Assembly (NCBI GenBank): GCA_913045195.1
Contig: CAJWQR010000012.1
Span: forward strand, 1-34,858
DNA: 34,858 bases
Reading direction: 5' to 3'
DNA from: an uncultured Legionellales bacterium
GTDB taxonomy: Bacteria; Pseudomonadota; Gammaproteobacteria; Eutrophobiales; Eutrophobiaceae
This document shows positions 8,423-14,062 of the stretch, piece by piece. Made by a program: the position numbers and the translations under genes. Under the pieces are notes generated by a model, which was given only the letters and a program-made list of their open reading frames with translations, searched no databases and was not told the origin of the DNA. Positions within the stretch are counted from its first letter, which is position 1. Each line of letters opens with the position of its first letter.

Positions 8423-9694
<1,272 letters not shown>

Positions 9695-9726: not shown

Positions 9727-9966
9727 TTACTTGTTTTTTTTATATTCTTGAGGAGTATATGTTTTAAACGATAACGCGTGTATTTCATTGCCAATTTTGT
9801 CACCTAATGCCTTATACACCATTCTATGTTGCTGTAGCATATTCTTCCCAGAAAATAATTCACAAACAATATTGGCATTAAAGTGTGTTCCATCATCGCC
9901 TTCAACTGTAACATCGGCACCCGGTAATCCTGACTCTATAAGTTGCTTAATGATCTGTGGATTCAT
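9727..9966 (-). CDS. ibaG: IbaG (YrbA), BolA-family protein
   Basis: IbaG is a small BolA-type protein that forms [2Fe-2S] complexes with monothiol glutaredoxin (Grx4) and is linked to acid stress. The 79-residue protein has the BolA fold signature GDDGTHFNANIVCELFSGKNMLQQHRMVYKALGDKIGNEIHALSFKTYTP. The conserved histidine lies in QQHRMVY, with another in the variable loop (DGTHF). It sits immediately upstream of murA, as in E. coli. A 13-bp palindrome occupies the space just before its ATG, where the ribosome site would be. Confidence 0.93.
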   Translation of the reverse strand: MNPQIIKQLIESGLPGADVTVEGDDGTHFNANIVCELFSGKNMLQQHRMVYKALGDKIGNEIHALSFKTYTPQEYKKNK

Positions 9967-10096: not shown

Positions 10097-10714
10097 CTAA
10101 TTTGAGATACTGCCCCCTAGTATTTCATTTTTTTCTGAGAGTTCATTAAGAAGCGAATCAAAACCTTTTTTCTTAATTTGTGTTGCAAAAGAATTTCTAT
10201 AAGTTGTCACTAAGCTTACGCCATCAACTGCCACATCAACAACTTTCCACTCCTCATTCTTTTGATGCATGCGATATAAAATAGGTAATTGCGTGTTGCT
10301 TGAACTTGTTAACTCCGTTTTTACAACGGCAAGAGTAGATGTGGAATTTTGTTCAACGGGATAGTATTTTATACTCTGTCCAGAGTACTCCAATAATGCT
10401 CGGGCATATGTACGCACAAGCAATGCTTTAAACTGTGCAATAAATTTGGAGCGTTGTTTCTCGTTTGCAGTCCTCCAATGTTTTCCTAGCACCCATTTGG
10501 ACATACTAATAAAATCAAAACGTGGAATTACCAATTCATTCACCATATCATATATTTTTTCAGGATGAGTTTCCAAAACAGAACGATTACTTTCAATATG
10601 ACTTATAACGCCTTCAGCTGTTTCCTTTACTACTTCGTCTGGAGTTGCCGTCCATGCAGTACCAACCGAAAAATATAATATAAAAAATAAGCACCCTAAT
10701 TTATTAAAACTCAT
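10097..10714 (-). CDS. mlaC: MlaC-family periplasmic phospholipid-binding protein (Ttg2D / HpnM-related)
   Basis: MlaC-family proteins carry phospholipids across the periplasm between the MlaA-porin complex and the inner-membrane MlaFEDB transporter; HpnM is a relative linked to hopanoid transport. The 205-residue protein has a signal peptide (LGCLFFILYFSVGTAWTA) and family text: PRFDFISMSKWVLGKHWRTANEKQRSKFIAQFKALLVRTYARAL and the C-terminal WKVVDVAVDGVSLVTTYRNSFATQI. AGAGGTAAG lies 8 bases before the ATG. The mlaF, mlaE, mlaD and mlaB genes that normally flank it are absent here. The gene upstream on the same strand is an RND/MMPL transporter, 236 bases away. Confidence 0.92.
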   Translation of the reverse strand: MSFNKLGCLFFILYFSVGTAWTATPDEVVKETAEGVISHIESNRSVLETHPEKIYDMVNELVIPRFDFISMSKWVLGKHWRTANEKQRSKFIAQFKALLVRTYARALLEYSGQSIKYYPVEQNSTSTLAVVKTELTSSSNTQLPILYRMHQKNEEWKVVDVAVDGVSLVTTYRNSFATQIKKKGFDSLLNELSEKNEILGGSISN

Positions 10715-10950
10715 TAAATCTTACCTCTGGAATTATTATTTTTTTACCTGAGTTGCAGAACAAACACTTCGTTAATAAAAAATTATCAATTTTTAAACTT
10801 TAAAAGAGATTGGTTATCGGTATTCTTACCTCTAATATCAGGGAAATATTGTAATAGGAATAGATTAAGAGAGATAGTACTTATGAGATATTTATTCCAC
10901 TTATTTAGCATTAAATAATAATCGCAAGATACTGTTTTATTGTAGTTTTA

Positions 10951-13419
10951 TCAAAAAGGTCTAAATAGTAAAATTAGTTTTGGCAGCAATGTTAACGCAG
11001 CAAATAAGGCGATAAACATCGCTAGAGCTGTTAATACTCCAAAATAAATTGTGGGAATAAAATTCGATAACACTAAAATTGAGAAGCCTATAATTATCGT
11101 ACTAGCCGTATAAAAGACTGCTTTCCCTATATTGGCATGGCAATAATGCATTGTAGATACATAATTTTTTGTTTTTGGGAATTCTTCGCGAAAACGATAG
11201 ATATAATGAATACTATTATCGACGGCTATACCAATTGTTATTGCGGCTATGGTAATTGTCATCATATCCAGAGGTATTCTAAGTAGGCCCATTAGACCTA
11301 ATATAATTGCTGCCGCTAGTAAATTTGGGATGATCCCAATTATTGCTAGCTGTGCCGAGCGAAATAAAATGATTAACATTAATCCAATCCCAGCCATAAC
11401 AACACCTAAAGTTAAAATCTGCGATTTATATAAACTTTGTAACATATTATTATAAAGAACAAGAATTCCCGTTATTTTTATTTTATCTTCATCTATATTA
11501 ATTCTTTCAATCAAATCGATTTTTATTTTTTCTAATAGCTCTTGACGTCGAAGATTTTTTAATGAATCAAGTATCCGAATATTTATACGGGCTTCGTTAT
11601 TTGCTTCAGAGATGTATGGGTTAATCATACTTTTTCTAAGTTCCTCGGGCATGCGTTTACTGACAATCGCCAATTCAAAAGCATCGAACTCTCCTTCATT
11701 TATTTGTTCCCCGACACGAATAATTGATGCAAGAGAAAGAACTTTTCCTACTTCTGGTAATGCTTCTAAATAATCATGGGCCTGTTTTACTATATCGATT
11801 CGATCTGGTGTAAACCATGCTTCTTCTTGATCTTCTTCAAATGCACTAAACAATGCATCGAAATCTTCAAAATCTTCACCCGTCTCTTTATTTTCAACAT
11901 TTTCGGAATTTTCCAAATTTAACAATATATCAACGGGTGTTGTCCCCCCTAGCTTTTCATCAATTAAACGTAACCCCTGAAAAATTTCAGTATCTTCGCT
12001 AAAATAATTTATAAAACTATTTTCTACTTGAAGACGACTAATGCCATAAGCACTAATTAATGTAAGAATTACAGTAAGCACTAATATCCTGTTACCATAT
12101 TGTTCGGTAATATTCGCAAGCTTTGATGTAAATTGAAACTCATTCCCCGAAGTTGTCTTTTCAATGATCTTTGGCAATAAAATTAGTAAAGAGGGAAATA
12201 AAATAAATGACGTCAAGAATGTTACGCTTAGCCCAATTGTCATCATCCATCCGAAATCAATAACTGGCTTGATACCGCTTACCACTAAAGAAGTAAACGC
12301 CATAATAGTTGTCAAGGCCGTGTATAAACAAGGCCAGACCATCTTGCTCATTGTGCTTAACACCAATTCATGTTGCGTATAATCGGGGAAATCATTCCTT
12401 AATTGCCTATAACGAACGATTAGATGGACATTCATCGACATAGTTATAATCAACATAAGTGAAATAAAATTTGACGATATAACCGTTACATTCCATCCAA
12501 CTAAACCAAGTAGCCCAACCATTAATAACCCAGCATAAAAACAACTTACCAAAGGAAGTAGCACCCATCTTAATTTTCGAAAAATAATTGTTAGCATAAT
12601 TATTAGGAAAAGAAACACTCCGATACCAAATATAATTAAATCATTTTTTATAAAAGTTATCATATCGTCTGCTATCATTGGTACACCACCGAGATGTAGT
12701 GAGCCATATCTGCTATACTCAGAAAGTATTTCTCTTATTCTTATTATGGTTTCATGATTTATTTTGTCATTTTCATTCTTCTTTTTTGCATACGCAGTAA
12801 GTATTTTCTCAAACTCTATTCTTTCGCTATCATCTAATTCATCATTCTTATCTTTAATTAACAATTGATTTCTTTTACGTTGTATTTCACGGAATTCTGT
12901 TTGATCTTCCAAATTAACTAATAGTGCAGTCGTAGCGCCATCTCTGCTTATGATTAGTTCTTTATATATGGGGCTGGTAAGTATTTCTTGCTTAGCTTTA
13001 TCGAGATCAATGTCTCCTCCTTCTATTGTACGAACATTATCTGCAATATCAGATAATGAACCATCAAATTGCATAACAAGAGGTATATCAACTAAGCTTA
13101 CTACCGAATGGACTAGTTCTAATTTGTTTATTTCGTCCCTAAGCTGTGTAATTTTTTCAAGAACAGTTTGGGTAAAAAGATTTTCTTTAGATGTGAATGT
13201 TACAAACAAAAATTCCTTAGTTGCATAACGCTCAATTGTTTCGCGAAATAACTTAAGATCTTGATCTCCTTCTAATAATAAGGAATCTGCAGATGCGTCA
13301 AGCTTAAAACTTTTTGTTTGAAATGCGAAAAAACATAAAACAACAGACATTATGAGACAAACTAAAACTGGCTTCTTAAGTACAGTTGCTAAATATATTT
13401 TTTTAATTATATTAACCAT
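10951..13419 (-). CDS. RND/MMPL-superfamily inner-membrane transporter (HpnN-like architecture)
   Basis: The 822-residue membrane protein has the two-fold RND layout: TM1 (about residues 15-35), a large periplasmic loop to about 265, a five-helix block to about 435, TM7 (ILVLTVILTLISAYGIS), a second periplasmic loop to about 660, and a final five-helix block. The text LEGDQDLKLFRETIERYATKEFLFVTF and the repeat-half GLLRIPLDMMTITIAAITIGIAVDNSIHYIYRFREEF are typical of COG1033-type predicted exporters, which include the hopanoid transporter HpnN. The second loop carries a very acidic stretch (GEDFEDFDALFSAFEEDQEE). No TolC or membrane-fusion partner is near; mlaC follows on the same strand. Lipid export to or within the outer membrane is inferred, not shown. 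Confidence 0.85.
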   Translation of the reverse strand: MVNIIKKIYLATVLKKPVLVCLIMSVVLCFFAFQTKSFKLDASADSLLLEGDQDLKLFRETIERYATKEFLFVTFTSKENLFTQTVLEKITQLRDEINKLELVHSVVSLVDIPLVMQFDGSLSDIADNVRTIEGGDIDLDKAKQEILTSPIYKELIISRDGATTALLVNLEDQTEFREIQRKRNQLLIKDKNDELDDSERIEFEKILTAYAKKKNENDKINHETIIRIREILSEYSRYGSLHLGGVPMIADDMITFIKNDLIIFGIGVFLFLIIMLTIIFRKLRWVLLPLVSCFYAGLLMVGLLGLVGWNVTVISSNFISLMLIITMSMNVHLIVRYRQLRNDFPDYTQHELVLSTMSKMVWPCLYTALTTIMAFTSLVVSGIKPVIDFGWMMTIGLSVTFLTSFILFPSLLILLPKIIEKTTSGNEFQFTSKLANITEQYGNRILVLTVILTLISAYGISRLQVENSFINYFSEDTEIFQGLRLIDEKLGGTTPVDILLNLENSENVENKETGEDFEDFDALFSAFEEDQEEAWFTPDRIDIVKQAHDYLEALPEVGKVLSLASIIRVGEQINEGEFDAFELAIVSKRMPEELRKSMINPYISEANNEARINIRILDSLKNLRRQELLEKIKIDLIERINIDEDKIKITGILVLYNNMLQSLYKSQILTLGVVMAGIGLMLIILFRSAQLAIIGIIPNLLAAAIILGLMGLLRIPLDMMTITIAAITIGIAVDNSIHYIYRFREEFPKTKNYVSTMHYCHANIGKAVFYTASTIIIGFSILVLSNFIPTIYFGVLTALAMFIALFAALTLLPKLILLFRPF

Positions 13420-13468: not shown

Positions 13469-14062
13469 TCATAATATAATACGTTCTTCAATAATTTCTT
13501 GTATTGTTTTTACATACAAGCCATGTTCAATCTTCAAGATCTTTTTTGCTAATGACTCTGGAGTGTCTTCTTCATTCAATGTAACTGTTTCCTGTGCCAA
13601 AATTTTACCATCATCATAATCACCACAAACTAAGTGAATTGTTGCTCCGCTCTCTTTATCTCCAGCATCTACCACTGCTCTGTGTATATTCATACCATAA
13701 AAACCTTTGCCGCCATACTTTGGTAGTAAGGATGGATGTATATTGAGAATCTTGCCTTCAAATTCAGAAAGTACTTTGGGCCCTATTTTTTTCATAAAAC
13801 CCGCCAAAATAATAAGATCAACGTTATGTTTAAGTAAGGTGTTACGCATAACAGCGTCTAATTGCTCAGGGTTTGTATGTGTTTGTGAGCTAATATAAAC
13901 CGTATTAATTCTTTTTTCTTTTGCTATAGACAGTGCTTTCGCGTCGGCATTATTGCTTAAAACAATTTCAACACTAGCAGATATGCGGTCTTGTTCACAC
14001 GCATCAATTATGGCAGACATATTGCTGCCCCTTCCAGAAACTAAAATAGCAAGTTTTTTCAT
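13469..14062 (-). CDS. purN: Phosphoribosylglycinamide formyltransferase (Bacteroidetes-like subtype)
   Basis: PurN transfers a formyl group from 10-formyl-THF to GAR in purine synthesis. The 197-residue enzyme has GRGSNMSAI for the phosphate loop, the catalytic NIHPSLLP (Asn107, His109) and an aspartate at about 150 in DYDDGKIL. After HPSLLP it reads KYGGKGFYGMNIHRAVVDAGDKESGATIH. The usual proteobacterial type reads KYPGLHTHRQAL at this place, while GGKGMYG is what I recall from Bacteroidetes enzymes, so lateral origin is possible. The ATG overlaps the pdxB stop (ATGA). purM, the common partner, is absent. Confidence 0.92.
   Translation of the reverse strand: MKKLAILVSGRGSNMSAIIDACEQDRISASVEIVLSNNADAKALSIAKEKRINTVYISSQTHTNPEQLDAVMRNTLLKHNVDLIILAGFMKKIGPKVLSEFEGKILNIHPSLLPKYGGKGFYGMNIHRAVVDAGDKESGATIHLVCGDYDDGKILAQETVTLNEEDTPESLAKKILKIEHGLYVKTIQEIIEERIIL

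Follow-up and report, generated by a model that had tools for sequence, protein, structure and literature searches.

Which inner-membrane machine serves the periplasmic lipid carrier MlaC at a site from which its usual partner genes are missing? In E. coli, the carrier is encoded in the order mlaFEDCB-ibaG-murA (b3191-b3195 being the Mla genes). In the stretch of DNA analysed here (34,858 nucleotides, contig 12 of its host genome, hereafter the window), a gene for an RND transporter stands in place of mlaF, mlaE, mlaD and mlaB. The original prediction had read this layout as a sign that an RND pump, and not an MCE/ABC machine, partners the carrier. We therefore asked how far this reading holds for the site, for the host genome and for other bacteria.

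An RND gene at the mlaC-ibaG-murA site

The genes that make up the site are:

8423..9685, minus strand: murA, kept neighbour of the ancestral mla locus (open reading frame; adjoins mlaC in relatives, with the same order in E. coli)
9727..9966, minus strand: ibaG (BolA family), kept neighbour of the ancestral mla locus (PF01722, 69 bits)
10097..10714, minus strand: mlaC, MlaC-family periplasmic lipid carrier of 205 amino acids (PF05494, 180.3 bits against a cut-off of 26, profile positions 2-165 of 166)
10951..13419, minus strand: RND (MMPL/HAE3-like) transporter of 822 amino acids, proposed inner-membrane partner of MlaC (PF03176, 96 bits against 20.5)
13469..14062, minus strand: purN, upstream boundary of the RND-mlaC slot (PF00551, 162 bits; the same boundary in relatives with mlaFED or without an insert)

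Open reading frame calls and profile scores confirmed that these genes are real and that the RND gene and mlaC are paired here. As had been predicted, ibaG and murA are kept, and none of mlaF, mlaE, mlaD and mlaB is present at the window site. Along the minus strand the order is a pdxB/serA-like gene, purN, RND, mlaC, ibaG, murA, hisG and hisD, with purN to murA all codirectional (the names pdxB, murA, hisG and hisD being assigned from the sequence). mlaC lies downstream of the RND gene at a distance of 236 nt, and a scan across both genes found promoter and terminator sites no more numerous than in shuffled sequences. The MlaC protein scored above the gathering cut-off of PF05494 over the whole domain and is thus a member of this family; its hydrophobic N-terminus reads as a signal peptide, and it matches MlaC/Ttg2D structures.

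In the RND protein, the MMPL domain was found in two stretches, covering both halves. An AF2 model (pLDDT 81, pTM 0.73) gave MmpL3/4/5, HpnN and NPC1-type proteins as top Foldseek matches, most of which are lipid or sterol transporters, MmpL5 being also a drug efflux pump. The best fold matches, the mycobacterial lipid RNDs MmpL3/4/5, reached TM-scores of about 0.63-0.70 by query, but at about 12 percent identity, and their partners are MmpS and AcpM rather than MlaC. The protein stayed below the cut-offs of all three curated models applied, namely HAE3 (TIGR00921, 174.3 versus 351.9 bits), HpnN (TIGR03480, 114.6 versus 751.85 bits) and BstA (NF045600, 23.6 versus 1400 bits). MMPL/HAE3-type RNDs are expected to have an aspartate in both TM4 and TM10. 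The corresponding codons of the window are:

11218..11220, minus strand: Asp734 in TM10, the one of the two usual RND aspartates that is kept (Asp in 116/117 homologues)
12436..12438, minus strand: Ser328 in TM4, a position held by Asp in HpnN-type RNDs (Ser or Ala in 117/117 homologues)

The HpnN encoded elsewhere in the genome carries an aspartate in both halves, the window RND in TM10 only, and this one-sided aspartate sets a distinct RND subfamily apart.

Other lipid transport genes of the host genome

The host genome (1.39 Mb, 86 contigs, 90.9 percent complete) encodes three MlaC-family proteins, one in the window and one each on contigs 15 and 3. The sets found outside the window locus are:

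Contig 15 (L012:6987-9718): mlaF-mlaE-mlaD with its own, convergent mlaC; the MlaD passes TIGR04430
Contig 26 (L014:7346-10867): a second MCE/ABC system without MlaC, comprising a STAS protein, MlaE, an MlaF-like ATPase, a 329-aa MCE protein and a weak ABC_trans_aux lipoprotein
Contig 3 (L013:2993-6938): an MlaC-family gene after hpnH and hpnB and before mlaA
Contig 10: the squalene-hopene cyclase gene (shc) and a true HpnN (816.6 bits on TIGR03480)

The original prediction had counted on there being no complete mlaFEDB set with a second mlaC elsewhere in the genome. This expectation largely failed given the set on contig 15, next to which no mlaB was found. The layout of this set, with a convergent mlaC that is not co-transcribed, is conserved across the family. 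A loss of all MCE systems from the host is ruled out by the sets on contigs 15 and 26.

The search of the genome for mlaA and hopanoid genes, proposed along with the prediction, was likewise positive away from the window locus. Two mlaA copies were found on contigs 3 and 16, and shc, hpnH, hpnB, an HpnM-like gene and HpnN lie on contigs 3 and 10. We call the contig 3 carrier HpnM-like, as it scored 160.0 bits on the HpnM model (TIGR03481, cut-off 160.1). The hpnB-MlaC-mlaA row recurs in four further genomes (G021, G022, G023 and G030); the hpnH-hpnB-hpnM-like-mlaA row and this recurrence hint at an additional role of MlaA in hopanoid transport. That is, the RND-MlaC pair of the window is an additional set in a host that lacks neither MCE transport nor hopanoid transport genes.

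Recurrence of the MlaC-RND linkage

Within the family (Eutrophobiaceae), the RND is present in 44 of 53 genomes, and in all 30 family loci fetched MlaC adjoins it, with PurN and MurA flanking most stretches and the order purN-RND-mlaC-ibaG-murA conserved. Relatives without the RND at this site differ in what the slot holds:

G020: purN, two further ORFs, mlaF, mlaE, mlaD, a STAS protein (MlaB), mlaC, ibaG, murA
G022: purN, one further ORF, mlaF, mlaE, mlaD, mlaC, a STAS protein (MlaB), ibaG, murA
G021: mlaE-mlaD-mlaC-murA
G004, G005, G009, G011, G019: purN, mlaC and murA, the RND and mlaFED both being absent from the site

A lone mlaC between purN and murA, with no RND or mlaFED at the site, was seen at loci L056, L057, L059, L061 and L063. 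Since mlaC stands alone at the site in several relatives, its linkage to the RND gene is not obligatory.

In an unrooted MlaC tree, the window protein belongs to a clade of 29 rows (21 with RND, 5 with none and 3 with MlaED at the site; SH-aLRT 97). The MlaC proteins of the mlaFED-carrying relatives fall inside this clade, whereas the contig 15 type and HpnM lie outside it. Site comparison and shared clade together demonstrate that one orthologous mlaC neighbours either an MCE/ABC transporter or the RND, depending on the genome; as the tree is unrooted, it leaves the direction of this exchange unshown. RND and MlaC distances co-vary beyond those of MurA (partial Mantel test on 19 loci only, partial r 0.39, p 0.0005). 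The E. coli MlaC residues Y72, L76, Y82, I130, R134, R147, R153, N179 and R186, which affect MlaD binding (PMC10245069), did not discriminate between RND-linked, MlaED-linked and HpnM groups in an alignment that indels possibly distort. A second RND paralogue of the family, about 43-46 percent identical to the window RND, is directly preceded by an MlaC of its own in 4/4 loci examined.

Three minor observations concern two further genomes. One genome (G037, contig 12:344489-349452) carries two tandem RND copies of the subfamily upstream of mlaC. In another (G048), the second MlaC-RND paralogue pair is followed by a cytochrome c'-like gene (L082:4958-8551), and an MlaC-like match (contig 2:40923-41306), interrupted by two TAG stops in frame, is perhaps a remnant.

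Beyond the family, genome contigs were scanned by RND alignment alone. The subfamily is large, and the best 80 loci of a longer list were analysed. MlaC adjoins the RND in 44 of these 80, which bears out the predicted recurrence of the adjacency in relatives. Among the best 80 loci, MlaC lies beside the RND in Gammaproteobacteria, Desulfobacterota, SAR324, Nitrospirota and Planctomycetota, although several contigs are metagenome bins and single phylum labels may be wrong. The 44 loci are arranged as follows:

MlaC downstream, same strand: 13 loci, mostly gammaproteobacteria, including Thioglobus
MlaC downstream, convergent: 6 loci, small-genome marine gammaproteobacteria
MlaC upstream, same strand: 24 loci, Desulfobacterota and other deltaproteobacteria, SAR324, Nitrospirota, and Planctomycetota including Scalindua
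MlaC upstream, divergent: 1 locus

The RND tree splits deeply into two sides, which correspond to the two main arrangements. When the neighbours of the best 80 loci were clustered without labels, MlaC was the most frequent family, followed by one later found to be MlaA. MlaA is clustered with the pair in 26 of the best 80 loci, often overlapping or a few nucleotides apart, as in tight operons. Since genomes hold one to few MlaC genes, an adjacency in 30/30 family loci and 44 of the best 80 lies far beyond chance. In SAR11, Marinobacter and several alphaproteobacteria the RND is present but not beside mlaC.

At the level of whole genomes, MlaC was present in 48/48 of the RND-bearing genomes searched, and the MlaE permease was missing in 29 of them. 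Among 80 MlaC-bearing Pseudomonadota genomes picked as controls regardless of RND, MlaE was missing in four. The difference (Fisher p 4e-12, a value that ignores relatedness) compares controls filtered for completeness with unfiltered RND-bearing genomes; but MlaC turned up even in genomes that have it away from the RND, which speaks against incomplete genomes as the reason for the missing MlaE. In six Pelagibacteraceae genomes, mlaA and mlaC form an operon, MlaE is missing and the RND lies at another place. Among SAR11 and marine alphaproteobacteria, the mlaA-mlaC operon likewise occurs with a distant RND and, in most cases, without MlaE. Pqi and Let systems do not use MlaE, so its absence excludes MCE/ABC systems but not Pqi or Let. 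In the four controls with MlaC and without MlaE, no such RND lay within about 7 kb of mlaC, and none was found in the 2.0 of 4.7 Mb searched of one of them (G106); MlaC may thus have a further partner besides the RND. At two loci (L178 and L179, in G106 and G114), mlaC and mlaA are divergent; MlaE is missing from these genomes, and no RND of this subfamily lies nearby.

A candidate MCE-free lipid route

Taken together, we give a probability of about two in three to the reading that the RND and MlaC belong to an MCE-free intermembrane lipid route driven by the proton motive force, the RND as its inner-membrane part and MlaC as its periplasmic part. The analysis establishes the gene identities, the conserved linkage, the differing partners of one orthologous mlaC, the co-occurrence in genomes that lack MlaE and the lipid-RND fold, while contact, cargo and energy source are inferred. 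The RND would do the job of E. coli MlaFEDB, with the proton motive force in place of ATP, and would contact MlaC, which would shuttle lipid between it and an outer-membrane MlaA-type lipoprotein. In the window lineage, the RND would fill the place of mlaFED(B) in the mla-ibaG-murA locus, next to a retained mlaC. The cargo would most likely be a glycerophospholipid, as MlaA is clustered with the pair and SAR11-type RND carriers are, to our knowledge, not hopanoid producers. HpnN, MmpL3 and similar lipid RNDs transport outward, whereas in E. coli MlaA takes part in retrograde transport. Our judgement tips slightly towards a broader form of this reading, in which MlaA-MlaC-RND would be a widespread, MCE-free and ATP-independent counterpart of Mla in several phyla, and apparently the RND would be the only MlaC-linked inner-membrane candidate in SAR11, within an RND subfamily that would use a single transmembrane aspartate.

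The paralogous mlaFED with its own mlaC means that the RND is not the sole candidate partner in the host, and this part of the original prediction has to be qualified. The RND could be an unrelated neighbour, with the window MlaC serving the MlaFED of contig 15 (or several partners) and the purN-murA linkage reflecting inherited synteny. The presence of mlaFED in the genome, the gap between RND and mlaC and the lone mlaC surviving at the site in some relatives all fit such an explanation. We nevertheless consider it unlikely, given that the contig 15 set has its own mlaC across the family, that the MlaC-RND linkage recurs in other phyla and other gene orders, and that many RND-bearing genomes lack MlaE; the last two points also give good support to the predicted partnership of carrier and RND. 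Equally concerned with function is the possibility that the RND exports another hydrophobic compound (a solvent, toxic amphiphile or pigment lipid), with MlaC as periplasmic acceptor and no role in phospholipid homeostasis. MMPL/HAE3 RNDs do transport a variety of lipids. Toluene tolerance gave MlaC homologues their first name (Ttg2D, PMC8035174). But the frequent clustering of the pair with MlaA, the outer-membrane phospholipid component, and the pairing of the only MlaC of SAR11 with MlaA make such a cargo quite improbable.

That the window pair is the hopanoid transport pair HpnM and HpnN appears very improbable to us, even though the host makes hopanoids by gene content and the window MlaC gets 108.3 bits on the HpnM model. 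Both window proteins are well under the curated cut-offs (160.1 bits in the case of MlaC), a real HpnN sits with shc, the HpnM-like protein sits with hpnB and hpnH, and SAR11-type carriers of the RND are not among the hopanoid producers we know of. An HpnM/HpnN identity is thus rejected, both on the curated scores and because the genome has a true set elsewhere; the comparison drawn in the original prediction survives as an analogy, both pairs consisting of an RND and an MlaC-fold protein and the AF2 model of the window RND resembling HpnN (5khn, 6wu0). The window pair differs in lying outside the hopanoid cluster, and its RND in lacking the TM4 aspartate.

If the RND is the partner of MlaC in Desulfobacterota, Nitrospirota, Planctomycetota, marine gammaproteobacteria and SAR11, lipid traffic at the outer membrane would, in some of the commonest bacteria of the sea, be powered by the proton motive force through a different machine. 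The same carrier and outer-membrane part, coupled to two unrelated motors, would then offer a test of Mla direction, and a large, little-characterised RND subfamily would gain a function. The pump-and-ferry pairing across phyla suggests a widespread mechanism of lipid transfer between inner and outer membrane.

Among open-access full texts (subscription papers and preprints being outside this scope), we found no description of an MlaC/MlaA-RND system, and an MlaA-MlaC-RND route is apparently undescribed in that literature. With E. coli Mla (MlaA-MlaC-MlaFEDB), the window system shares the MlaC fold, the mlaC-ibaG-murA site and an MlaA in the genome, whereas its inner-membrane part is an RND instead of the MCE/ABC complex, as mlaF, mlaE, mlaD and mlaB are not encoded with mlaC. 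The BstABC sterol transport system of Methylococcus likewise combines an RND, a periplasmic carrier and a third component and is MCE-free, but its BstB is a bilobed two-domain binding protein and not an MlaC (PMC10942540). Other Mla variants with missing components are the minimal MlaEFD of Veillonella (PMC10665443) and Mpc of Brucella (PMC12436622). Both keep the MCE/ABC part and are without MlaA and MlaC, while the window system retains MlaC (and MlaA) and has another machine in place of the MCE/ABC part.
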